A stretch of 64,000 nucleotides of DNA from Algiphilus aromaticivorans DG1253 (GTDB lineage Bacteria > Pseudomonadota > Gammaproteobacteria > Nevskiales > Nevskiaceae), in assembly GCF_000733765.1 (NCBI RefSeq), contig NZ_JPOG01000001.1:3296501-3360500 (forward strand). Direction: 5' to 3'. Of the stretch, positions 16,002-29,911 are shown one piece after another. The position numbers and the translations under genes were made by a program. Every line of letters starts with the position of its first letter. Position 1 is the first letter of the stretch. The notes under the pieces were generated by a model. It was not told the origin of the DNA. It searched no databases and saw only the letters and a program-made list of their open reading frames with translations.

Positions 16002-17285
16002 TCAGACCGCTCTTGCCAGCGCAGGCGCCTCCGGCGCGTCGCGCGGGATCTGCGTACCGATGGTGCGCAGCAGCTGCCCCAGCCGGTAGAGCGCGCTAGG
16101 TGCGACGGTTTTGCCCGTATTCAGTATCGCCACCGAAATTTCGCGGCTGGGGTCCGCCCAGCAGATGATGTTCATGAAGCCGAGGTGCCCGAAGGCGCCG
16201 CGGCAATTCGGCCCGTAAAGACCAAAGGGATTTTCCCCCAGCACCATGCCCATCGAGAAGCGCACCGGGAGCATCAAGCTGCGATCGATGCGGATGCGGC
16301 TGGCCGGCTCTACCGCACGCGCCACCGTTTCCGGTGCAAGCAGTTGCCGCCCCTGGTAGCGACCGCCGACGCGTAGCATCTCGAAGAAGCTCGTGGCCTC
16401 CTCGGCGGTGGCGTAGAGGTTGCCGGCCGGAATGACGGCCGACAGGAATTCCGGGCAATTGGAGATGCCCGGCACGCGCTCGAAGTCGGCACCCAGCACG
16501 CGCCGCGCAATCATCCGCAGCGGTGCCGGAAGCGGCGCGCCCGTGAAGGCGTTACGCGCCGCCTCGTGATGCCGCTCGCGCGGCAGGCCGTACTGGAAGG
16601 TCTTCATGCCCATCGGGCGCGCGAAGTGCTCGGCCAGATAGTCATTCAGCGGCTTCCCGGATACGCGCTGCACCAGCTCACCGAGGATGAAGCCCGCGGT
16701 TACGGCGTGATAGGCCTGCTGCTCGCCGGCACCGTGCAGGGGCTTCGCGGCGCAGAGCATGGCCACCGCGCGCTCCCAGTCCCAGAGCAGGCTCGGATCG
16801 GGCTCGCGCATCGGAATGCGCGGGATGCCCGCCTGATGCGCAAGCAGATGCCGCACCAGTGTCTGTTCCTTGCCGTTGACGCCATACTCTGGAAGATAGT
16901 CGGTGACGCGGGCGTCCAGATCGACCAGGCCGTCCTCGGCGCACTTGTGCACGAGCATCGCCGTTACCGCCTTGGAGGCGGAGAACAGGCAGACCGGCGT
17001 ATCGCGCTGCATGGGCCGGCGGGCCCCGTGTAAGGGATCGTCACCGGCCACACCCGCGGCATAGCCGATAGCACGGTCGTAGAGAATCTCGCCGCGACGC
17101 CGAACGCAGAGCTGCAGCCCCGGATGCAGACCGGTGCGGTAGAGGTCGAGCAGCGCGGCGTGAATCGCCTGCGTCGCCGCCGGATCCAGACCGAGCTGCT
17201 CGGCCGGCAACTCTGCCGGGTTGCGGTCGATGATCAGATCCAGATTGCGCCGGATATGCACGCGGTTGCGGCGAAGTGGATTCAT
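16002..17285 (-). CDS. Serine beta-lactamase-fold hydrolase (esterase-like)
   Basis: 427 residues without a clear signal peptide. The SxxK motif is SASK (Ser102, Lys105), the KTG-like element is HLG near residue 355, and the Tyr motif is YHA instead of YxN. This is the class C beta-lactamase/EstB esterase fold, usually a carboxylesterase rather than a beta-lactamase. It overlaps the upstream LysR gene by 4 bases and precedes the amidohydrolase, so the two enzymes probably act on one compound. Confidence 0.82.
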   Translation of the reverse strand: MNPLRRNRVHIRRNLDLIIDRNPAELPAEQLGLDPAATQAIHAALLDLYRTGLHPGLQLCVRRRGEILYDRAIGYAAGVAGDDPLHGARRPMQRDTPVCLFSASKAVTAMLVHKCAEDGLVDLDARVTDYLPEYGVNGKEQTLVRHLLAHQAGIPRIPMREPDPSLLWDWERAVAMLCAAKPLHGAGEQQAYHAVTAGFILGELVQRVSGKPLNDYLAEHFARPMGMKTFQYGLPRERHHEAARNAFTGAPLPAPLRMIARRVLGADFERVPGISNCPEFLSAVIPAGNLYATAEEATSFFEMLRVGGRYQGRQLLAPETVARAVEPASRIRIDRSLMLPVRFSMGMVLGENPFGLYGPNCRGAFGHLGFMNIICWADPSREISVAILNTGKTVAPSALYRLGQLLRTIGTQIPRDAPEAPALARAV

Positions 17286-18208
17286 AGCTCGTCTCCTGAT
17301 GGTCGGTCCGCCGACTCGCGGTCGGCGACCGCGCGGAGGCGGTCGCGCAACCAGCGGCTGCCGGCGTCGTCTTCGGCCGAATGATGCCAGTAAAGCTGCA
17401 CGCGGAAGCTCGGCAAGCGCATCGGCGCCGGCGCGATGTGCAGAGGAAATCGACGCGCCTGCTCGCGCGCCACGCGGCCGGGCAGCGCCAGCAGAAGATC
17501 ACTGGTGGCCACCGCCGCGCATCCCGAGGCATAGCTCTGGCAACGCAGCTGCACCTGCCGATGCAGACCAGCGCGCTGCAGCGCAGCATCCTCAAGCGAC
17601 AGCCCACTGGGGCGCCCCGACACGACGACATGCGCCCCCGCCAGCCAGTCCTCCTGGGCGAGGGGAGCAACCGCCAGGGGATGGTCGCGACGCATGACGA
17701 TGCAGAGCGGATCGTCGAAGAGCGACTCGCGATGAATCTCCGGCCCTAGCGGCAGGGCGATATCCATGACCAGATCCAGCTGCCCGCGCGCCAGATCCCG
17801 GGCGACGCTCTCGCGCGCGAACTGCACCGAAGCCAGCGTCACCCCCGGTGCCTCGGCGCGCAGCACGGTCAGCAGCCCCGGCAGCATCGTCATTTCGATG
17901 ACCTCGCGCAGGCCGACGGCGAAGCGGCGCACGGCGCTGGACGGCTCGAAATCGTGGCCGGCGCGAAGCCCGGCATCAAGCAGCGCCAGTGCCTGCCGAA
18001 CACCCGGGGCCAGGGCGTGCGCACGCGGCGTGGCCACCATGCCACGCCCCTCGCGACGGAACAGCGGATCGCCGAAGCGGCTGCGCAAGCGGCCCAGCGC
18101 GTGGCTGACGGCGGGCTGGGTCAGGTGCAGCAGCTCGCCGGCCCGCGTCAGGCTGCCAGTTGCGTAGATGGCGTCGAAGACGCGGAATAGGTTGAGATCA
18201 AAGCGCAC
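17282..18208 (-). CDS. LysR-family transcriptional regulator
   Basis: 308 residues from the GTG at 18208. The N-terminal winged helix has GSLTRAGELLHLTQPAVSHALGRLR, clearly LysR, and the remainder is the PBP2-type effector domain (NodD/PcpR-like group). It leads the operon with the serine hydrolase and amidohydrolase and is divergent from the acyl-CoA dehydrogenase operon, with a dyad between them, so it may control both directions. Confidence 0.9.
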   Translation of the reverse strand: MRFDLNLFRVFDAIYATGSLTRAGELLHLTQPAVSHALGRLRSRFGDPLFRREGRGMVATPRAHALAPGVRQALALLDAGLRAGHDFEPSSAVRRFAVGLREVIEMTMLPGLLTVLRAEAPGVTLASVQFARESVARDLARGQLDLVMDIALPLGPEIHRESLFDDPLCIVMRRDHPLAVAPLAQEDWLAGAHVVVSGRPSGLSLEDAALQRAGLHRQVQLRCQSYASGCAAVATSDLLLALPGRVAREQARRFPLHIAPAPMRLPSFRVQLYWHHSAEDDAGSRWLRDRLRAVADRESADRPSGDEL

Positions 18209-18213
18209 GCATC

Positions 18214-18236
18214 AATCATGCATCACATGCATGATT
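18214..18236. promoter_or_regulatory. Dyad in the LysR/acyl-CoA dehydrogenase divergent region
   Basis: AATCATGCAT and its complement flank a CAC spacer, a perfect 10-base-arm inverted repeat lying 6 bases upstream of the LysR start and 77 bases before the acyl-CoA dehydrogenase start. It contains the T-N11-A form of LysR sites and is the best candidate for the regulator's binding site. Confidence 0.65.
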
Positions 18237-18312: not shown

Positions 18313-19545
18313 ATGGATTTTTCCCACAGCGAGCGCACACGCGACTACATCAAGCGCATCGATGCCTTCATTCGCGACCGTGTCGCACCCGTCGAGGAAG
18401 CCCATCTCGAAGAGATGATGCAGGCTCGGCGCGGTGGTGACTGGAAGAACTGGCGCCTCAATCCCGAGATCGAGAAGCTCAAGGTCGAGGCGCGTGAGGC
18501 CGGTCTGTGGAACCTCTTTCTGCCCGACCCCGAACACGGCAGCGGCCTGAGCAACGTCGACTATGCACCGCTGTGCGAGGCCATGGGTAGGAGCCTGATC
18601 GCGCCGGAGGTCTTCAACTGCAACGCTCCCGACACCGGCAACATGGAGGTGCTGGAGAAGTACGGCAGCGACGAGCAGAAGGAGCGCTGGCTGAAACCGC
18701 TGCTCACCGGCGAGATCCGCTCGGCCTTCTGCATGACCGAACCCGACGTGGCTTCCAGCGACGCCACCAACATGGCGGCCACGGCCACGGTGGAAGGCGA
18801 CGAGGTCGTGCTCAACGGCCGCAAGTGGTGGTCCTCCGGCATCGGGCATCCGAACTGCAAGGTGGCCATCTTCATGGGGCTGACCGACCCCGAGGCCAAC
18901 CGCCACCAGCGCCACAGCATGGTACTGGTGCCGCTGGACACCCCCGGCGTGCAGATCAAGCGCATGCTGCCGGTCTTCGGCGAGTACGACGAGCCGTACG
19001 GTCACGGTGAGGTGCTCTTCGACAACGTACGGCTGCCGAAGTCCGCCTTCATTCTCGGTCCCGGCAGAGGCTTCGAGATCGCCCAGGGACGCCTCGGGCC
19101 GGGGCGCATCCATCACTGCATGCGTGCGCTGGGCGCAGCCGAGCGCGGCCTGCAGCTCATGATCGAGCGCGGTCTGGCGCGCGAGGCCTTCGGCAAGCAG
19201 ATCGTCAACCTCGGCGGCAATCGCGAGCGCATCGCCGATCTGCGCGCCGGCATCGACCAGGCGCGGCTGCTGACCCTGTATGCCGCCTGGAAGATCGACC
19301 AGGTCGGCGCACTGGCCGCGCTCACCGAGATATCCGCCATCAAGGTGGTCGCCCCCAACGTGCTGCAGCAGGTCATCGACGAAGCCATCCAGATGCACGG
19401 CGGCGCCGGTGTCTCCAACGACACCCCGCTGGCGGCGATGTACGCCCAGGCGCGGGTGCTGCGCATCGTGGATGGCCCGGACGCAGTTCACCGCGGCATG
19501 ATCGCGCGCATGGAGCTGGGCAAGTACGCCGCCGCCAAGCGATGA
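18313..19545 (+). CDS. Acyl-CoA dehydrogenase (ACAD10/ACAD11-like)
   Basis: 410 residues from the ATG at 18313, which follows GAGGAGA; an ATG at 18259 lacks a ribosome site. Family marks are CMTEPDVASSDATN (FAD/substrate loop), GRKWWSSGIGH, and the C-terminal HGGAGVSNDTPLA and IVDGPDAVHR. In the ACAD10/11 group this enzyme works with an APH-domain kinase, here encoded separately at 21433. It starts an operon running to 24456 and overlaps the next gene by 4 bases. The chain length and hydroxylation of the substrate are unknown. Confidence 0.85.
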   Translation: MDFSHSERTRDYIKRIDAFIRDRVAPVEEAHLEEMMQARRGGDWKNWRLNPEIEKLKVEAREAGLWNLFLPDPEHGSGLSNVDYAPLCEAMGRSLIAPEVFNCNAPDTGNMEVLEKYGSDEQKERWLKPLLTGEIRSAFCMTEPDVASSDATNMAATATVEGDEVVLNGRKWWSSGIGHPNCKVAIFMGLTDPEANRHQRHSMVLVPLDTPGVQIKRMLPVFGEYDEPYGHGEVLFDNVRLPKSAFILGPGRGFEIAQGRLGPGRIHHCMRALGAAERGLQLMIERGLAREAFGKQIVNLGGNRERIADLRAGIDQARLLTLYAAWKIDQVGALAALTEISAIKVVAPNVLQQVIDEAIQMHGGAGVSNDTPLAAMYAQARVLRIVDGPDAVHRGMIARMELGKYAAAKR

Positions 19546-20441
19546 AGCCGGCGCGGATCGACGCGCTGCTCTACGGGACGCTGGCGGGACGGCGCGAGCG
19601 CGTCGCCGCCGGCTGGCCCGAGGGCATGCGCTGGGTCCCCACCACCAGCGGCACTATCCGCGTACTCGACGGCGGCGGCGACGGGCATCCCGTGGTCTTT
19701 GCCCCGGACGGCCCCTGCGTGATCGAGCACTACGCGGCGTTGCGTGCACTGCTTGAGCCTGATTTCCGCGTCATCGTCTTCGACCTTCCGGGCTTCGGCT
19801 TCAGCGCGCCACCCGCCGACTACGGGCATCGATTAAGCGAGGGCGCGCGCGTGGTCGCGGGGCTGCTCGAATCGCTGGCACTACCACCGGTGACGCTGGT
19901 GATGTCCTGCGTCAACGGCTTCTACGCCATGGCGGCCACGCGGCTTGCCCGCGCCCGCATCGCCCGCCTGGTGCTGTGCCAGACGCCCTCGCTCGCAGCC
20001 ATGCAGCGTTGGACCGAACGCATGGTGCCCTCGCCCATCACCACGCCGGTGCTCGGCCAGCTGCTCAGCTTCTTCAGCCGGCGCCGCATCGCCACGGGCT
20101 GGTATCGGGTGGCGGTCGCCGATCGCGAGCAACAGGCGGTGTTCTCGAGAACCGCGCGCACTGCGCTGCGCCAGGGCGGCTGCTACTGCTTTGCCGGCGT
20201 CGTGCAGGGCATGCTGGCGACCGACGCAGCCGACCCGCAGCTGCAGCCGCCGCCGGATCTTCCTGTGACGATGGTCTGGGGCAAAGCGGATCGTTCGCAT
20301 AAGCGCACCGATCCTGCGTCGCTGCGTGCGCACTGTCCGCAGGCTGAAATCGTGCCGATCGCTGATGCCGGTCACTTCCCGGAGCTGGAAGCGCCAGAAG
20401 CCTTCGCGGCGCTGCTGCGCCGCCGCTGTCTGCCGGCGTGA
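19542..20441 (+). CDS. Alpha/beta hydrolase-fold protein, Cys at the nucleophile position
   Basis: 299 residues. The fold is clear: VFDLPGFGFSAPP, WGKADRSHK (acid region) and AGHFPELEAPEAF (His). The nucleophile elbow after strand LV reads MSCVNG, so Cys123 occupies the usual Ser position and GxSxG is lost. The paralogue 80 bases downstream has Ser at residue 123. The two share SxPPxxDY-like and CYCFAxxVxGM segments. It is translationally coupled to the acyl-CoA dehydrogenase. It may be a thioesterase or hydrolase of the operon's substrate; activity is uncertain. Confidence 0.75.
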   Translation: MKPARIDALLYGTLAGRRERVAAGWPEGMRWVPTTSGTIRVLDGGGDGHPVVFAPDGPCVIEHYAALRALLEPDFRVIVFDLPGFGFSAPPADYGHRLSEGARVVAGLLESLALPPVTLVMSCVNGFYAMAATRLARARIARLVLCQTPSLAAMQRWTERMVPSPITTPVLGQLLSFFSRRRIATGWYRVAVADREQQAVFSRTARTALRQGGCYCFAGVVQGMLATDAADPQLQPPPDLPVTMVWGKADRSHKRTDPASLRAHCPQAEIVPIADAGHFPELEAPEAFAALLRRRCLPA

Positions 20442-20523
20442 CGATGGCCTGTAGCTTTCGACCACTGGCGACAGCGGCCGATCCGGCATGCAAGATGCAC
20501 GCAGACTCACGAGGAGCGCAGCG

Positions 20524-21426
20524 ATGATCGGTAGCCGCTTCGACGCCTTCTTCTACGGCCGTCTTGCCAAGAAGCGCCGCGAGGCACAGGCGCAGTGGCC
20601 GGCGGACATGCGCATGATCGACACGTCAGCCGGCCCCATGTGCGTGCGCGATACCGGCGGCGACGGCCCCGTGGTCGCTTTCGCGGTGGCCAGCCCCTGT
20701 GTTACCACGCACTACGACGGCGTTCTCGAAGCGCTGCGCAGCGACTATCGCGTTGTCGTTTTCGACATGCCGGGCTTTGGCTTCAGCCCGCCCATGGCCG
20801 ACTACGATCACAGCCTGGGAGCCGGCGGCAAGGCCATGGCCGGCCTGCTGGAGACGCTGGCGCTGCGCGACGTGACGCTGGTAGCAGGCTCGATCAACGG
20901 CCTCTACGGGCTGGCCGCGAGCCAGCTGAGCGATCGGCTGGCTCGGCTGATGCTGGTACAGACGCCGTCGGCGCAAACGATGAAGGCCTGGTTCGGCCGC
21001 ATCACGCAGCCGATCTTGCATCGGCGGCTGCTCGGCCAGTTCATCAACTTCACCAGCCGCGATCGCTTCCCGCCACTCTGGTACCGCATCGTGCTGAGCG
21101 ATCCGGGACTTCGGGAAGCCTTCACCGCGCCGGCCATGCAGGCGCTGGCGCAGGGCGCCTGCTACTGCTTCGCCAGCTTCGTGCACGGCATGCGCGACAT
21201 CGACCCGAACGATCCCTTGCTGTCCGCCGACCCGGCGCTGCCCGTGGATCTGGTCTGGGGCAATGCCGACCGCACCCACCGCAGCACCCAGCCCGAGGCG
21301 ATTCAGCAGCACGCACCGCAGGCCGAGATCCTGCGCGTGCCCGAAGCCGGACACTATCCCGACCTCGAAGACCCCGAGGCCTTCGCGCGGCTGCTGCGCA
21401 GCCGCGTGCCCCCGAACCCACAATAG
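20524..21426 (+). CDS. Alpha/beta hydrolase-fold protein, paralogue of the preceding gene
   Basis: 300 residues from the ATG at 20524, behind GAGGAG; the ATG at 20488 has no ribosome site. It shows VFDMPGFGFSPP, the elbow AGSINGLYG with Ser123, WGNADRTHR and AGHYPDLEDPEAF, so the Ser-Asp-His triad is plausible, but GxSxG is AxSxN. It arose with the upstream gene by tandem duplication. It lies 6 bases before the APH-type kinase gene. Its partner substrate is unknown. Confidence 0.78.
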   Translation: MIGSRFDAFFYGRLAKKRREAQAQWPADMRMIDTSAGPMCVRDTGGDGPVVAFAVASPCVTTHYDGVLEALRSDYRVVVFDMPGFGFSPPMADYDHSLGAGGKAMAGLLETLALRDVTLVAGSINGLYGLAASQLSDRLARLMLVQTPSAQTMKAWFGRITQPILHRRLLGQFINFTSRDRFPPLWYRIVLSDPGLREAFTAPAMQALAQGACYCFASFVHGMRDIDPNDPLLSADPALPVDLVWGNADRTHRSTQPEAIQQHAPQAEILRVPEAGHYPDLEDPEAFARLLRSRVPPNPQ

Positions 21427-21432
21427 GTACCC

Positions 21433-22500
21433 ATGAGCAATCAGCTGATCGACACCGCGGATGACGTCCGCGACGGGGAAGAACTGGATGTCGGCGCGGT
21501 CGACGCCTGGCTGAAGCAGCGCGTCGAAGGCCTCCAGGGCCAACCCGAGGTGACACAGTTTTCCGGCGGGGCCTCCAACTGGACCTACCGGCTGGCCTAT
21601 CCGTCGCACGATCTGATCCTGCGCCGGCCGCCCGCCGGCACCAAGGCCGCATCGGCGCACGACATGGCGCGCGAGTATCGGGTTCAGGAGCGCCTGAAGC
21701 CGGTCTTTCCCTATGTGCCGCCGATGGTGGCGCTCTGCGAGGACACCTCGGTGATCGGCGCCGAGTTCTACGTCATGGAGCGGCTTCCGGGCATCATCCC
21801 GCGCGCCAACATGCCGCGCGGACTGGAAATGGACCCGGCCACCGCGCGCCGGCTCTGCCATTCGGTCATCGACAAGCTGGTGGCACTGCATCAGGTTGAT
21901 GTCGACGCCGCCGGCCTGGGCGATCTCGGCAGGGGCAGCGGCTACGTCAAGCGCCAGATCGAAGGGTGGACCGAGCGCTTTGAGCGCGCCCGCACCTGGA
22001 ATGTGCCGCGCTTCAGCTATGTCACGCGCTGGCTCACGGACAACATGCCCGAGGATGTCGCGACCTGCGTCATCCACAACGACTTCCGTCTGGACAACTG
22101 CGTGCTCGACCCGGACGACCCCACGAAGGTCACCGGTATCCTCGACTGGGAGATGGCGACCCTCGGCGACCCGCTGATGGATCTGGGCAACGCCCTGGCC
22201 TTGTGGACGCAGGCCGACGACGACCGCATCGCCCGCGCCATGCGGCGGCAGCCGACCCACCTGCCAGGCATGCTCACGCGCGCCGAGGTCGTGGAGTACT
22301 ACTGTCTGCAGACCGGCCGCAGCATCGACAACTGGGCCTTCTACGAGGTCTACGGCCTGTTCCGGCTGGCCGTCATCGCCCAGCAGATCTACTACCGCTA
22401 CCACCACAAGCAGACACGCAATCCCACTTTCCGGCACCTTTGGGTGGTGACTCACTACCTTTACTGGCGCTCCCGCAACGTCATCCGGCGGGCCGGCTGA
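21433..22500 (+). CDS. APH-type phosphotransferase, ACAD10/ACAD11 kinase-like
   Basis: 355 residues. The aminoglycoside-phosphotransferase-like kinase motifs HNDFRLDN (near residue 215) and DWEMATLGDP (near 238) are intact, with FSGGASNWTYRL as the nucleotide loop. Proteins of this group form the N-terminal domain of mammalian ACAD10/11 and the LvaA kinase of Pseudomonas, which phosphorylate 4-hydroxyacyl-CoA before dehydration by the dehydrogenase partner. Placement with the dehydrogenase at 18313 supports the same role. It overlaps the phosphatase gene start by 1 base. Confidence 0.82.
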   Translation: MSNQLIDTADDVRDGEELDVGAVDAWLKQRVEGLQGQPEVTQFSGGASNWTYRLAYPSHDLILRRPPAGTKAASAHDMAREYRVQERLKPVFPYVPPMVALCEDTSVIGAEFYVMERLPGIIPRANMPRGLEMDPATARRLCHSVIDKLVALHQVDVDAAGLGDLGRGSGYVKRQIEGWTERFERARTWNVPRFSYVTRWLTDNMPEDVATCVIHNDFRLDNCVLDPDDPTKVTGILDWEMATLGDPLMDLGNALALWTQADDDRIARAMRRQPTHLPGMLTRAEVVEYYCLQTGRSIDNWAFYEVYGLFRLAVIAQQIYYRYHHKQTRNPTFRHLWVVTHYLYWRSRNVIRRAG

Positions 22501-23192
22501 TGGGCGCGATCTATCTCATCCGCCACGGCCAGGCGAGCTTCGGCAAGACCGACTACGACCAGCTTTCCGATCTCGGCATGCAGCAGGCGAGCCGGTTGGG
22601 CGAGGCGCTGTCCTTCCGCCTGCCGCACCCGGACGCGATCATGGTCGGCGCCATGCTGCGCCACCAGCAGACCGCGGCCAAGGCGCTCGCCGGCATGGCT
22701 CTGCCCCCGGAGTGGCGAACCGATGCGCGCTGGAACGAGTTCGACCACGACGAGATCATCCGCGTCTACGAGCCGCGCTACGCCAGCCACGCCGTGCTGG
22801 CGGCGGACCTGGCGCGCTCGCTGCAGCCGCGGCGCGCCTTCCAGGACATGTTCGCAAAGGCCGTCGGGCGCTGGATCGACGGCGCCCACGACGATGATTA
22901 CGCCGAGCCGTGGCCCGCCTTCTGCGCCCGCGTCAAGGCTGCCTGCGATGATCTCTGCGCGGAACTCGGCCGCGGCCGCTCGGCTCTTGTCTTCACCTCC
23001 GGCGGGGTCATCACCAGCCTAGCCGCCGAGCTGCTGAAGCTGGGTACCCGCGAGACGATGCGGATGAACTGGACCCTGGCCAACGCCAGCGTCACGAAGT
23101 TGATCTTCTCGGATCGGGGGCTCTATCTCAGCACTCTCAACGAGCACGCCCACTTCGAGGGCGCGCATCGCGATTTCATCACCTACCGCTAG
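22500..23192 (+). CDS. Histidine phosphatase family protein
   Basis: 230 residues. The catalytic RHG is at residues 8-10 (LIRHGQAS), and a second histidine region follows near VFTSGGVIT. The ATG at 22500 overlaps the stop of the kinase gene (TGATG). Members remove phosphate from small molecules or proteins through a phosphohistidine. Beside an APH-type kinase it could reverse or edit the phosphorylation step, but that is inference. Confidence 0.8.
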   Translation: MGAIYLIRHGQASFGKTDYDQLSDLGMQQASRLGEALSFRLPHPDAIMVGAMLRHQQTAAKALAGMALPPEWRTDARWNEFDHDEIIRVYEPRYASHAVLAADLARSLQPRRAFQDMFAKAVGRWIDGAHDDDYAEPWPAFCARVKAACDDLCAELGRGRSALVFTSGGVITSLAAELLKLGTRETMRMNWTLANASVTKLIFSDRGLYLSTLNEHAHFEGAHRDFITYR

Positions 23193-23200
23193 GATTTCCC

Positions 23201-23947
23201 ATGCGCAAGAACATTCTCATCACCGGCGCATCCTCCGGCCTCGGCGCCGGCATGGCGCGCGAATTCGCCGCCATGGGCCGCAACCTCGCGCTCTGCGCGC
23301 GCCGCACCGACCGGCTTGAAACGCTGCGCGACGAACTGCTCGCCCAGAACCCCGACATCCGGATCAGCATCGGCGCGCTGGACGTCAACGATCATGACGC
23401 CGTCTTCGAGACCTTCCGCGCCTTCGAGGCGGATCTCGGCGGCATCGATCGCGTCGTCGTCAACGCCGGCATGGGCAAGGGCCAGCCGCTGGGCACGGGC
23501 TACTTCTACGCCAACAAGCAGACGGCCGAAACAAACTTCGTGTCGGCGCTGGCGCAGATGGAAGCGGCCATGGAACTCTTCCGCGCTGCGAACTCCGGCC
23601 ACGTGGTCGTGATCTCCTCGATCAGCGCCTTCCGTGGCATGCCCAGGAACCTCACCACCTACGCCGCCTCCAAGGCCGGGGTCGCCGCGCTGGCCGAGGG
23701 CTTGCGCGCCGACGTCATGGACACCCCGATCGAGGTCACCACCATCTACCCGGGCTATATTCGTTCGGAGATCAACGAGAAGGTCAAGAAGGTACCCTTC
23801 ATCGTCGATACCGCTACCGGCTGCCGCGCCATGGTGCGCGCCATCGAGAAGGAGCCTGCCGAAGCCAGCGTCCCGTCCTGGCCGTGGACACCGCTGGGCG
23901 CGGCGATGAAGCGCCTGCCGTTGCGCATCGTTGCGCGCATGGCCTGA
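23201..23947 (+). CDS. Short-chain dehydrogenase/reductase
   Basis: 248 residues. Classical SDR marks: TGASSGLGAGMA (NAD(P) binding), VVVNAGMG, and the active-site Ser in ISSISA with YAASK. It oxidises or reduces a hydroxy/oxo group, probably in the hydroxyacyl-CoA pathway of this operon. It lies 8 bases after the histidine phosphatase. Confidence 0.88.
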   Translation: MRKNILITGASSGLGAGMAREFAAMGRNLALCARRTDRLETLRDELLAQNPDIRISIGALDVNDHDAVFETFRAFEADLGGIDRVVVNAGMGKGQPLGTGYFYANKQTAETNFVSALAQMEAAMELFRAANSGHVVVISSISAFRGMPRNLTTYAASKAGVAALAEGLRADVMDTPIEVTTIYPGYIRSEINEKVKKVPFIVDTATGCRAMVRAIEKEPAEASVPSWPWTPLGAAMKRLPLRIVARMA

Positions 23948-23970
23948 ACCCATCGAGCAAGGAGTTCTAC

Positions 23971-24456
23971 ATGACCGACCGTCCCCAGCATCTCGGCCCG
24001 CTGCGTTTGCACTTCCAGGCCAACACACGTGCACCGCGCGAAGCCGTCTTCGCCTTCCTGGCCGACCACGACCGCTTCGGCACCCTGTTCGCGCCGCCCT
24101 TCGCCAGCAAGCCGGGCGCGCTGATCCGACGCAGCGCCACCGCGCCCGATGGCAGCGACCCGAACGGCATCGGGTCCAAGCGCGCTCTCCGGGTCGCCGG
24201 CCTGACGATGCTGGAAGAAGTGATCGTGGCCTATGAGCCCAACCATCTGATCGAGTACACCGCCACACGCGGGCCGATCCGCAACCACCTCGGGCGCATC
24301 GTGCTGGAGGAGGACGGCCATGGCGGCACGCACCTCGACTACCGCATCTGGCTCGACGGCAAGCTGCCCGGGCTGGGTGCCCTGCTCGGCGCACAGCTCA
24401 AGGGCGCGCTGCGCGGCGGCTGGGCGCGCGCGCAGCGCCAGCTCGAGGCGAGCTAG
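23971..24456 (+). CDS. SRPBCC/START-like protein
   Basis: 161 residues from the ATG at 23971, behind AAGGAG. The N-terminus (RLHFQANTRAPREAVFAFLADH) is the SRPBCC helix-grip pattern, which binds hydrophobic ligands. No catalytic residues are evident. It ends the operon that began at 18313 and converges on the PF10118 gene. Confidence 0.72.
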   Translation: MTDRPQHLGPLRLHFQANTRAPREAVFAFLADHDRFGTLFAPPFASKPGALIRRSATAPDGSDPNGIGSKRALRVAGLTMLEEVIVAYEPNHLIEYTATRGPIRNHLGRIVLEEDGHGGTHLDYRIWLDGKLPGLGALLGAQLKGALRGGWARAQRQLEAS

Positions 24457-25473: not shown

Positions 25474-26433
25474 ATGACCGGGGACATGGGCAGTTACGAC
25501 GAGCAGCCGGAAGACGGCCGGGTGCCGGCCGAACGCGAGTACACCATCGACCAGCTCGCCCGCGCGGCCAGAACCACTGTGCGCAATGTCCGCGCCTACC
25601 AGGACCGCGGGCTGATTCCGCCGCCCGAGCGGCGGGGGCGCACGGGCTACTACGGCGCCGAACACCTGTCGCGGTTGCGCATCATCGGCCAGATGGTCAA
25701 CCGAGGCTACACGCTGGCTTCCATCGGCGAACTCATCGACGCCTGGGAACAGGGCCGCGACATCGGCCATCTGATCGGCCTGGAGACGGCGGTTTCCAGC
25801 CCCTGGTCCGACGAGGCCGGCGGCTATTTCACGTTGCCCAAGCTGGTGAAGATGTTCGGCGGCAACTTCGACCCGCGCTGGCTGGCGAAGGCCGCCGAGC
25901 TGGGAATCCTGCGCTCGGAAGGCGCCAAGTTCTATGCTCCGAGCCCGCGCATGCTGCACGCTGGCGCGGAGCTGGTGAAGGTCGGTATTCCACTCGACCA
26001 GATGCTGGATGTGGTGGCCAAGCTGCGCGACAACGTCGAACGCGCCGCCGACGAGATGGTGCTGCTGGTCGAGCAGCATGTCTTCGACCGTTTCGGGCCC
26101 GGCCTGCCACCGGACGACGAGGTGCCGCGGCTGGGCGAGACAATCTGGCGACTTCGGCCACTGGTGGAGGTCGCCGTGCACGCCGAGGTCGCACGCGCCA
26201 TGGAGAAGGCCGCCACGCGCCATCTGGGTGATCGGCTGGCTTATGTTCTGGACCACCTGCACGAAGCGCCGCCGCCCGAAGCTGCCGAGGAGACGCCAGC
26301 CAGAACCGCGGCCCGGAAGGACAACGCCCGCAGGCGCGCCGCCAAGAAGGCGGCAACGAAGAAGTCCGCAGCGAAGAAGGCTACCGGCAAGCGCGCCGCT
26401 GCCAAGAAGACGACGACGCGCAAGAAGACCTAG
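25474..26433 (+). CDS. MerR-family regulator with lysine/alanine-rich tail
   Basis: 319 residues. The MerR winged helix is YTIDQLARAARTTVRNVRAYQ with DRGLIPPPERRGRTGYY (residues 23-60). A second winged-helix-like stretch (YFTLPKLVKMFGGN) follows. From residue 276 the tail is Ala/Lys/Arg-rich (AAKKAATKKSAAKK repeats), like histone H1 and bacterial histone-like tails. It may sense metals or organics through the middle domain, but no Cys-rich metal site is visible. Its TAG stop and the BVMO gene's stop overlap in one CTAG. Confidence 0.82.
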   Translation: MTGDMGSYDEQPEDGRVPAEREYTIDQLARAARTTVRNVRAYQDRGLIPPPERRGRTGYYGAEHLSRLRIIGQMVNRGYTLASIGELIDAWEQGRDIGHLIGLETAVSSPWSDEAGGYFTLPKLVKMFGGNFDPRWLAKAAELGILRSEGAKFYAPSPRMLHAGAELVKVGIPLDQMLDVVAKLRDNVERAADEMVLLVEQHVFDRFGPGLPPDDEVPRLGETIWRLRPLVEVAVHAEVARAMEKAATRHLGDRLAYVLDHLHEAPPPEAAEETPARTAARKDNARRRAAKKAATKKSAAKKATGKRAAAKKTTTRKKT

Positions 26434-27980
26434 AGACTCCGGCTATCGACCGGCTCACCCGCCTGCTCGCGTGCCTCGACAGGCAGCAGATGGTAATCGT
26501 GCCGCTTCATCCGGCGCATGGCGGCGCGATAGGCAAAGGTGAAACCCGGCCAGAGCGTGGTGTTGCGCCCGCTTTGCGGATGGATGTACCAGCTGGTGCA
26601 GCCAGTGGACCAGGCCGTGCCGCGCGCGTGGCTCGCATCCACCCATTCGTTGAAGCGCTGCTGCGCCTCGGCACGGGGCTCGATGGCGGCGAGTTCGTCG
26701 CGCCGCATGGTGCGCAGGCAATCCATGATGTATCCGATCTGGGTCTCGATCATGTACACCATCGAGTTATGGCCGAGACCGGTGTTTGGGCCCACGATGA
26801 AGAAGAGATTCGGGAAACCCGCCATGGTTGTGCCGTAATAGGCCTGCGGGCCGCGCTCGGCCCAGCCCTCGGTGATGTCGCGCCCGTCGCGGCCGATGAT
26901 GGTGTCGGGGGGAACGGGGTCCTGGGCCTTGAAGCCCGTACCGTAGATGATGACGTCCGCCGGTCGTTCGCAGCCATCGGCGGTGACCACGCCGTCGCGC
27001 GTGATGCGCGTCACGCCGTCGGTAACGACGTCGACATTCGGCAGGGTCAACGCCGGGTAATAGTCGTCGCTGATCAGCACGCGCTTGCAGCCGATCTCGT
27101 AGTCCGGCGTGAGCTTGGCGCGCAGCTCCGGGTTGGGCACCTGCCGGCGCAGATGCAGCTTGGCCAGCGCGCGCACCAGCTTCAGCAGGCGCGGCTCGGC
27201 GATGAAGGCCAGCGCCCGCGACTCCAGGCGCGCATAGAGCGCCGCCCGCTGCGCCTTCTGCAGCAGCGGGAAGCGGCGGAAGATTGCGCGCTCGATACCC
27301 GTGATCGCGCGGTCCGGCTTGGGCATGATCCAGGCCGCCGAGCGCTGGTAAAGGTCCAGGTGCTCGACCTCCGGCACGATCTGGGGCACGAACTGAATGG
27401 CGCTGGCGCCGGTTCCGATGACCGCCACGCGCTTGCCGCGAAGATCGACATCATGGCGCCAGGTGGCCGAGTGAAAAGTCTCTCCGGCGAAATCGGCCGC
27501 ACCGTCGATCTCCGGAATGGCCGGGTTGCTCAGTCCACCCATGCCCGAGACGACCGCGCGCGCCGAAAAGCGGGCGCCATTGCGCGTGCTGACCAGCCAG
27601 CGCGCGGCCCCTTCCTCCCAGCGCATCTTCGTCACTTCGTGCCCGAACCGGACCCACGGCAGCAGCTCATAGCGCTCGGCGCAGCCCTCAAGGTAGCGCC
27701 GGATCTCCGGCTGCGGCGCGAAGGCGCGCGTCCACTCCGGATTGGGTGCGAAGGAGAAGGAATAGAGATGCGACTGCACGTCGCAGGCGCAGCCCGGATA
27801 GTGGTTGGCGCGCCAGGTGCCGGCAACGCCGGTGTCGCGCTCCAGCACGACGAAATCGCGCATTCCGGCCTCCTTCAGCTTGATCGCCATGCCGAGGCCG
27901 GCAAAGCCGGTGCCGATGACCAGAACATCCACCGATTCGACGGTCGCGGTCGGGCCGGAAGTCGCAGCATCAAAGGCCAT
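26430..27980 (-). CDS. Flavin-dependent monooxygenase, Baeyer-Villiger type
   Basis: 516 residues from the ATG at 27980, with GGAGG six bases upstream; an upstream ATG at 28043 adds no conserved sequence. Two dinucleotide sites are seen, GTGFAGLG near 20 and GTGASAIQ near 180, with the BVMO fingerprint FAGETFHSATW between them. These enzymes insert oxygen into ketones to give esters, using NADPH. The gene is convergent with merR and divergent from the betaine-synthesis pair. The ketone is unknown. Confidence 0.85.
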   Translation of the reverse strand: MAFDAATSGPTATVESVDVLVIGTGFAGLGMAIKLKEAGMRDFVVLERDTGVAGTWRANHYPGCACDVQSHLYSFSFAPNPEWTRAFAPQPEIRRYLEGCAERYELLPWVRFGHEVTKMRWEEGAARWLVSTRNGARFSARAVVSGMGGLSNPAIPEIDGAADFAGETFHSATWRHDVDLRGKRVAVIGTGASAIQFVPQIVPEVEHLDLYQRSAAWIMPKPDRAITGIERAIFRRFPLLQKAQRAALYARLESRALAFIAEPRLLKLVRALAKLHLRRQVPNPELRAKLTPDYEIGCKRVLISDDYYPALTLPNVDVVTDGVTRITRDGVVTADGCERPADVIIYGTGFKAQDPVPPDTIIGRDGRDITEGWAERGPQAYYGTTMAGFPNLFFIVGPNTGLGHNSMVYMIETQIGYIMDCLRTMRRDELAAIEPRAEAQQRFNEWVDASHARGTAWSTGCTSWYIHPQSGRNTTLWPGFTFAYRAAMRRMKRHDYHLLPVEAREQAGEPVDSRSL

Positions 27981-28068
27981 TCTGGCCTCCGTAAAGGTTA
28001 CATTGATTGCTGACAATCTAATGCCGGCAGCACGCCGATGCAACCCCGAAAGCCATGTATGACAACGC

Positions 28069-28088: not shown

Positions 28089-28247
28089 CTATTCGCGTTA
28101 AAGTGAAGAGGCTTTGCGGCTGCATTCGACGCGTTGATTCGCTCGATGCGGACTGCGGTCGCCGCCCCTGATGGCGAAATGTGCTTGCTGGATCTTCGAG
28201 TCCGGCCGCGTTTCGTTGTTGACCATGCACCGCCACAGGAAATCATC

Positions 28248-29075
28248 ATGAAACCTGAGAATCAGCAGAAAACCGAGCAGGACTTCGGCGCAGATCCGAT
28301 ATCCGTCCGCGACTCCGACCATTTCACCGAGGAGTACACGCAGTCCTTCGCCGAGAAGTGGGACGATCTCATCGACTGGGAGAGCCGCGCCGAATCAGAG
28401 GGTCGCTTCTTCATCGACCTTCTCAAGGAGAAGGGCAAGCACAAGATCCTCGACGCCGCCGCCGGCACCGGTTTCCACTCCGTGCGCCTGATGAAGGAAG
28501 GCTTCGACGTCGTCACCGCCGATGGTGCGCCCGAGATGCTGTCGATGGCCTTCGACAATGGCCGCAAGTACGGGCTCATCATGCGAACCGTGCAGGCCGA
28601 CTGGCGCTGGCTGAACCGCGACGTGCACGGCAAGTACGACGCCGTCATCGTGCTCGGCAACAGCTTCACGCACCTCTTTGACGAGCGCGACCGCCGCAAG
28701 GCCCTGGCCGAGTTCTACGCCGCCCTCAAGCACGACGGCATTCTGATCCTCGACCAGCGCAACTACGACCGCATCCTGGACAAGGGCTTCTCCTCGAAGC
28801 ACAAGTACTACTACTGCGGCGACCAGGTTTCGGCCGAGCCCGAGCACGTCGACGACGGCCTCGCCCGCTTCTGCTACAGCTTCCCGGACGGCTCGCAGTA
28901 CCACCTCAACATGTTCCCGCTGCGCAAGGACTACACGCGCGGGCTCATGAAGGATGTCGGCTTCCAGAAGATCGAGACCTTCGGCGACTTCAAGGAAACC
29001 CACCGCGAGGAAGAGCCGGACTTCTACATCCACGTCGCCTACAAGGACTATCACAGCGGCGACGAGGAAGCGTAA
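28248..29075 (+). CDS. Glycine/sarcosine N-methyltransferase
   Basis: 275 residues from the ATG at 28248, behind AGGAAA. The SAM site is ILDAAAGTGFHSVRL (motif I), with VTADGAP next. Overall similarity to halophile GSMT is supported by DHFTEEYTQSF near the N-terminus and FPLRKDYTRGLMKDVGF near the C-terminus. It converts glycine to sarcosine and dimethylglycine with S-adenosylmethionine, the first steps of glycine betaine synthesis. It overlaps the next gene by one base. Confidence 0.88.
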   Translation: MKPENQQKTEQDFGADPISVRDSDHFTEEYTQSFAEKWDDLIDWESRAESEGRFFIDLLKEKGKHKILDAAAGTGFHSVRLMKEGFDVVTADGAPEMLSMAFDNGRKYGLIMRTVQADWRWLNRDVHGKYDAVIVLGNSFTHLFDERDRRKALAEFYAALKHDGILILDQRNYDRILDKGFSSKHKYYYCGDQVSAEPEHVDDGLARFCYSFPDGSQYHLNMFPLRKDYTRGLMKDVGFQKIETFGDFKETHREEEPDFYIHVAYKDYHSGDEEA

Positions 29076-29911
29076 TGTCGAAGTACGACGACGAAGCGAT
29101 CAACACCGCCCGCGACTACTACAACAGCGAGGACGCGGATAATTTCTACTTCCACGTCTGGGGCGGCGAAGATCTCCACGTCGGCATTTACAAGGACGAC
29201 GACGAACCCATCTTCGACGCCAGCCGTCGCACCGTGCAGCGCATGGCGGAGCGGCTCGCCACGCTGTCCAAGGACAGCCGGGTACTCGACGTCGGCGGCG
29301 GCTACGGTGGCTCGATGCGCTATCTGGCACGCACCATCGGCTGCCATTGCACCGTGCTCAATCTCAGCGAGGTAGAGAACGAGCGCGACCGCAAGATGAA
29401 CGCCGAGCAGGGCCTCGATCACCTCATCGACGTCGTCGACGGCGCCTTCGAGAACATCGAGTTCCCCGACGACAGCTTCGATATCGTCTGGTCGCAGGAC
29501 GCCATCCTGCACAGCGCCGAGCGCGAGAAGGTTCTTACCGAAGTCGCGCGTGTGCTCAAGCCGGGTGGCGAGTTCGTCATGACCGACCCGATGGCCGCCG
29601 ACGACTGCCCCGAGGGCGTGCTGGACCCGATCCTGGAGCGCATCCATCTGCCCAGCCTGGGCAACCCGAGCTTCTACATCGCCACGGCGGAGAAGCTGGG
29701 CATGAAGGACATGGGCTTCGAGAATCACAGCCACCAGCTGCCACGCCACTATGGTCGCGTGCGCGCCGAACTGACGCGCATGACTCCCGAGCTGGAGGGC
29801 AAGGTCAGCGAGGCTTACATCGAGCGTATGAAGACCGGACTCGGAAACTGGGTAAACGGCGGCAACAACGGCCATCTCGCCTGGGGCATCTTCCTGTTCC
29901 GGAAGCAGTGA
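29075..29911 (+). CDS. Sarcosine/dimethylglycine N-methyltransferase
   Basis: 278 residues. The SAM motif VLDVGGGYGGSMRYLA is followed by SQDAILHS and the VLKPGGEFVMTD post-motif. It completes betaine from dimethylglycine, the osmoprotectant of salt-adapted bacteria. It is coupled to the GSMT gene (TAATG). A terminator follows at 29984. S-adenosylhomocysteine recycling is not encoded here, though metH lies 10 kb away. Confidence 0.88.
   Translation: MSKYDDEAINTARDYYNSEDADNFYFHVWGGEDLHVGIYKDDDEPIFDASRRTVQRMAERLATLSKDSRVLDVGGGYGGSMRYLARTIGCHCTVLNLSEVENERDRKMNAEQGLDHLIDVVDGAFENIEFPDDSFDIVWSQDAILHSAEREKVLTEVARVLKPGGEFVMTDPMAADDCPEGVLDPILERIHLPSLGNPSFYIATAEKLGMKDMGFENHSHQLPRHYGRVRAELTRMTPELEGKVSEAYIERMKTGLGNWVNGGNNGHLAWGIFLFRKQ

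Follow-up and report, generated by a model that had tools for sequence, protein, structure and literature searches.

The mammalian proteins ACAD10 and ACAD11, in which an APH-type kinase is fused to an acyl-CoA dehydrogenase (ACAD), were identified only in 2024–2025 as the enzymes that process 4-hydroxy fatty acids by phosphate tagging. In ACAD11, the 4-phospho group is held by R626, H634 and R637, and D753 is the base, while R631 is common to other ACADs (PMC12440821). In ACAD10, a degenerate HAD domain next to the kinase restrains its activity, with negligible phosphatase activity of its own (PMC11342911). In the Pseudomonas Lva pathway, the kinase and the LvaC-type ACAD are separate proteins, encoded together with an SDR in the lva operon, of which the regulator LvaR is of the sigma-54 type. 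In Pseudomonas citronellolis LA18T, the cluster induced by levulinate also has a histidine phosphatase gene (protein WP_074983800), located between those for its LvaA and LvaC homologues. Removal of phosphate by this histidine phosphatase was proposed (PMC6692424).

With these systems we compared a set of seven co-directional genes located downstream of a divergent LysR gene in a stretch of 64,000 nucleotides from Algiphilus aromaticivorans DG1253 (hereafter the window). The positions of the genes are listed in Table 1. The original prediction had placed all the named genes in one operon, and each of them was confirmed at its place and on its strand, with Pfam scores far over the cut-off (APH, 170 bits; ACAD C-terminal domain, 124; His_Phos_1, 78; adh_short, 134; Polyketide_cyc2, 49; Abhydrolase_6, 62 and 54). 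Four of the six gene boundaries (ACAD/ABH1, ABH2/kinase, kinase/HP and HP/SDR) have start and stop codons that overlap or lie almost in contact, and the seven genes therefore likely form an operon.

Table 1. Features of the operon and its regulatory region (positions in the window).
Feature	Position	Strand	Basis
LysR-type regulator, divergent from operon	17282..18208	-	Pfam LysR_substrate and HTH_1
Perfect inverted repeat (10 bp, 3-bp spacer), candidate operator for LysR	18214..18236		Intergenic region shared by LysR and ACAD genes
Operon of seven co-directional genes	18313..24456	+	
ACAD10/11-LvaC-type acyl-CoA dehydrogenase (ACAD), predicted 4-phosphohydroxyacyl-CoA eliminase	18313..19545	+	ACAD11 match; active-site residues
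Alpha/beta-hydrolase-fold protein ABH1, Val at nucleophile position (SCVNG)	19542..20441	+	Pfam Abhydrolase_6; alignment to esterase 4uhh and relatives
Alpha/beta-hydrolase-fold protein ABH2, Ile at nucleophile position (GSING)	20488 (or 20524)..21426	+	Pfam Abhydrolase_6
APH-type kinase, class A, predicted hydroxyacyl-CoA kinase	21433..22500	+	Pfam APH; 9o56, 3dxp and ACAD11 matches; catalytic residues
Histidine-phosphatase-fold protein (HP), Ser for second catalytic His (FTSGG)	22500..23192	+	Pfam His_Phos_1; AlphaFold2 model; Foldseek
SDR oxidoreductase, PRK08251 equivalog	23201..23947	+	NCBIfam NF006099, 421 bits vs cut-off 253
SRPBCC (Polyketide_cyc2) protein	23971..24456	+	Pfam PF10604

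The divergent LysR gene and the inverted repeat were not part of the original prediction. A divergent LysR gene adjoins the ACAD gene in most of the class A relatives described below, and similar ATTCAT...ATGAAT dyads are located at the same place in loci L047, L050 and L055. We infer that the operon is under the control of this LysR-type regulator, in contrast to the lva operon with its sigma-54-type LvaR. The present operon shares with the lva operon a separate kinase, an LvaC-type ACAD and an SDR, but differs in the presence of the HP gene and in the lack of LvaB, LvaE, LvaF and LvaG. Inspection of the gene list between 18313 and 24456 gave no LvaB-type gene, and among the operon genes there was neither an acyl-CoA synthetase or CoA ligase (LvaE) nor a levulinate-type transporter (LvaG). 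The cluster of P. citronellolis LA18T is likewise composed of a kinase, a histidine phosphatase family gene, an LvaC-type ACAD and an SDR, with no LvaB (PMC6692424), but includes a CoA ligase and a transporter, and its gene order is different. Near the operon, a flavin-binding monooxygenase resembling Baeyer-Villiger enzymes is encoded (window 26430-28043, minus strand; best NCBIfam match, PtlE), but it is not conserved with the operon in locus L043. Two tandem genes at window positions 28134-29911, identified by Pfam only as methyltransferases, look like glycine/sarcosine and dimethylglycine methyltransferases, which we take to be involved in betaine synthesis.

The operon ACAD is 54% identical to mouse ACAD11, and its best matches of known type were ACAD11 and the mycobacterial relative 4hr3. 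The score against the ACAD11 structure 8v3u was 443 bits, compared with 139 bits against the medium-chain ACAD. The residues equivalent to R626, R631, H634, R637 and D753 are all present in the operon ACAD and in all 91 homologues. Seven other ACADs of the same genome hold none of the three phosphate-binding residues and, at the catalytic position, no Asp but mostly Glu. Because the five ACAD11 residues are kept in the operon ACAD and the phosphate-binding residues are missing from seven same-genome counterparts, it is very unlikely to be an ordinary fatty acyl-CoA dehydrogenase. LvaC-type ACADs were detected in 85 of the 299 genomes sampled within the phylum.

For the kinase, the best PDB match was 9o56, with further matches to 3dxp and ACAD11. 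The equivalents of the catalytic Asp and Asn (D220 and N225) and of R176 are invariant in 81 homologues, the window protein included. The CoA-contacting Arg residues are R176 and the Arg beside the helix C Glu, and this Arg–Glu pair is also kept. The reading of ACAD and kinase as a split form of ACAD10/11 was thus borne out by all the functional signature residues, the phosphate-binding residues and catalytic Asp of the ACAD and the catalytic residues of the APH-type kinase being those of the mammalian proteins. The bacterial proteins differ from ACAD10 and ACAD11 in being encoded by two separate genes and in belonging to a different clade.

The kinase homologues were sorted into three classes, A (including the operon kinase), B and C. 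Class A kinases are encoded beside an LvaC-type ACAD and an HP gene, and class B kinases, about 50% identical to the operon kinase, mostly without ACAD. A class B copy with 51% identity is present in the same genome (G000:C1:1375471-1376520; L004 7460-8524, minus strand); its neighbors, named by eye from the translation, are a predicted bile-acid/sodium-symporter-like gene and an SDR, with no adjoining ACAD. The class C operons also encode an enone reductase resembling CurA/2-alkenal reductase (L078 7037-8041; similar c5 genes in L071, L072, L073, L075 and others), which hints at lipid peroxidation products as substrates. In a tree of 92 ACADs, a clade of 28 was formed with full support (100/100), and 27 of its members adjoin a class A kinase. 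This clade is apart from the one holding ACAD11 and the class C-linked ACADs, within which the exact place of ACAD11 is unsure owing to its long branch, the split itself being unaffected. From these sequences, the kinase and the ACAD appear to travel as a matched pair.

The class A kinases are only about 33% (median) identical to the ACAD11 kinase domain, compared with 42% for class C, and for this reason their substrate could differ from that of ACAD11 in chain length or in hydroxyl position. In its wider form, this alternative supposes that the hydroxyacyl-CoA handled by the ACAD and the kinase is of another kind, such as a 5-hydroxy or branched one, or that the two enzymes serve a particular natural product, instead of 4-hydroxy acids in general. 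It agrees with the separate clades of class A for both kinase and ACAD, and with the absence here of the CurA-like gene of the sister class C operons, as the substrates may differ between the classes, but the phosphate-binding residues are identical in classes A and C, and we consider the alternative unlikely.

The original prediction had also proposed a comparison of gene order in related genomes. The ACAD, kinase and HP genes were found together in all 13 relatives with kinases of at least 61% identity, usually with an SDR, which was of the PRK08251 type in nine of the 13. Because the core order recurs in all 13, the arrangement of the operon is not a matter of chance. Among all the class A kinase loci sampled, 26 of 28 have both ACAD and HP nearby. 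When the scan was anchored on HP instead, 69 of 80 loci had a kinase of this kind and/or ACAD no more than 6 kb away; as one of the two search patterns held FTSGG, the result does not count as separate support for the motif. For the HP loci without kinase, masked sequence was ruled out as the reason, there being no runs of N, and the absence is real. The co-occurrence spans Gamma-, Beta- and Alphaproteobacteria, Myxococcota and Actinomycetota, and the same block is present in annotated replicons of Azospirillum, Ideonella, Pseudoalteromonas and Streptomyces. The class A operons of Solimonas, Azospirillum, Ideonella, Pseudoalteromonas, Acinetobacter, Streptomyces and Kribbella are similarly composed of ACAD, an optional SDR, class A kinase and HP, often with an SDR and a divergent LysR gene. 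By contrast, of the relatives compared, only L043, from the same genus, shares the SRPBCC gene, which had been counted as part of the set.

In a sampled Pseudomonas-like genus (relatives of G297), an LvaC-type ACAD was found in 194 of 200 genomes and a kinase of this family in 79 of 80, mostly at separate places in the genomes inspected; nearly every member of the genus may thus have the pathway, with its genes unlinked. In a search of these Pseudomonas-like genomes for an lva operon of the P. putida type, the kinases of 29–36% identity were found to adjoin non-LvaC ACADs.

As the ACAD11 phosphate-binding residues and the kinase catalytic and CoA-binding residues are all kept, the best reading of the operon is that 4-hydroxyacyl-CoA, the predicted substrate, would enter beta-oxidation via a 4-phospho intermediate. 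The operon would then represent a two-protein bacterial form of the ACAD10/11 route (probability about 0.78), by which the cell would very probably burn hydroxylated fatty acids, a phosphate tag being added and then removed. Within this predicted route, the APH-type kinase would phosphorylate the hydroxyl of 4-hydroxyacyl-CoA, and the ACAD11/LvaC-type ACAD would take the phosphate off, with FAD being redox-active but with no net oxidation, to yield 2-enoyl-CoA for beta-oxidation. The SDR would probably interconvert the keto and hydroxy forms, before or after the phosphorylation and elimination. HP would most likely be an accessory outside the main route, binding or slowly hydrolyzing the phospho-intermediate or tuning the kinase. 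The points against this reading are the low identity of the kinase to ACAD11 (about 33%) and the lack of a CoA synthetase, a transporter and LvaB in the operon. Of the hydroxy fatty acid pathway in the original prediction, the core of kinase and ACAD stood, but the extra hydrolytic and phosphatase steps found no support in the form proposed.

The hydrolytic steps had been assigned to the paralogues ABH1 and ABH2. In both, the triad Asp and His are still present, but the nucleophile (Ser, Cys or Asp) is missing from the elbow, where Val is found in ABH1 (S-C-V-N-G) and Ile in ABH2 (G-S-I-N-G). Val, Ile or Ala is located at this position in six relatives, class C loci among them. Such nucleophile-less hydrolases were detected in only two of the 13 close relatives, and the slot between ACAD and kinase is elsewhere filled with an SDR, an intact hydrolase (NSWGG; L050 and L055), an SDR plus a hydrolase, or nothing; in the class A operons of the seven genera listed above, it holds an SDR, another hydrolase or nothing, unlike the two nucleophile-less hydrolases here. 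The two hydrolases were accordingly ruled out as a core step. ABH2 and the slot SDR of L045 (9029-9892) match the N- and C-terminal halves, respectively, of NCBIfam PRK05855, and hydrolases of the ABH2 type and SDRs of the L045 type occupy the same operon slot in different genomes. Since the matches are to the two halves of one protein, this hydrolase type and the slot SDR may serve related purposes.

The HP gene directly follows the kinase gene, and this position is near-constant in class A loci. The AlphaFold2 model of HP (pLDDT 95.5) matched branch-1 phosphatases in Foldseek, the fold being like that of metabolite phosphatases, and the RHG motif, the second Arg and the acidic residue (Glu) are invariant. 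The second catalytic His is replaced by Ser (FTSGG) in all 45 sequences, the window protein included, which were gathered without reference to this motif; the position was equated by sequence alignment and by the strand-then-helix context in which the residue lies. The second His is kept in two further histidine phosphatases encoded by this genome. Because this His is missing, a phosphatase step by HP is not safe to assume from the sequence. Nor was such a step absent from the known versions, as had been thought, since the P. citronellolis LA18T cluster has a gene of this kind (PMC6692424).

The missing His is not proof of inactivity, because Lys stands at the expected place of the second His in a histidine acid phosphatase domain from yeast, for which catalysis has been reported (PMC11836120). 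HP could be an active phosphatase on 4-phosphoacyl-CoA, which would provide a safety valve or a way of disposing of the phosphate other than elimination by ACAD. This tentative reading, at somewhat below even odds, is consistent with the yeast example, the invariant RHG, Arg and Glu, the fold, the location of the gene directly 3' of the kinase gene and the proposal made for P. citronellolis, but the uniform Ser at a position where the same-genome histidine phosphatases checked keep His argues against it, and hydrolysis of the kinase product would amount to a futile cycle. By analogy, HP may instead sense or regulate the phospho-intermediate: flea phosphatase-like proteins without catalytic residues serve instead to bind leukotrienes and biogenic amines (PMC10728186), and in ACAD10 a degenerate phosphatase-type element is likewise located next to the kinase and restrains it (PMC11342911), although the histidine phosphatase fold is unrelated to HAD. 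The idea that HP binds or regulates the kinase without catalysis of its own is also favored by the uniform loss of the second His within an otherwise invariant pocket and by the near-constant position of HP right after the kinase, but HP strictly keeps its nucleophilic His and the two Arg, which points to some remaining phosphoryl chemistry, and we hold this reading just as tentatively. The odds of a regulatory role and of a true phosphatase are about equal. A narrower proposal, that HP is a crippled partner dedicated to bacterial hydroxyacyl-CoA kinases, which senses phosphoacyl-CoA and restrains the kinase, is rather doubtful; if it is true, the bacterial kinases and ACAD10 would have arrived independently at one regulatory solution, ACAD10 via its degenerate HAD domain.

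The basic route is already known, and clusters of this kind had already been seen to include a histidine phosphatase gene. What is new, as read from the sequences compared, is that class A is a distinct lineage of wide distribution and that HP, its constant partner, has an altered active site. The operon belongs to a second, widespread bacterial lineage of kinase and ACAD, in which the third partner is constant but its catalytic site is altered. It offers a simple system for the question, equally posed by ACAD10, of why a phosphatase-like protein is located beside a kinase whose product, a phosphoacyl-CoA, may be harmful.
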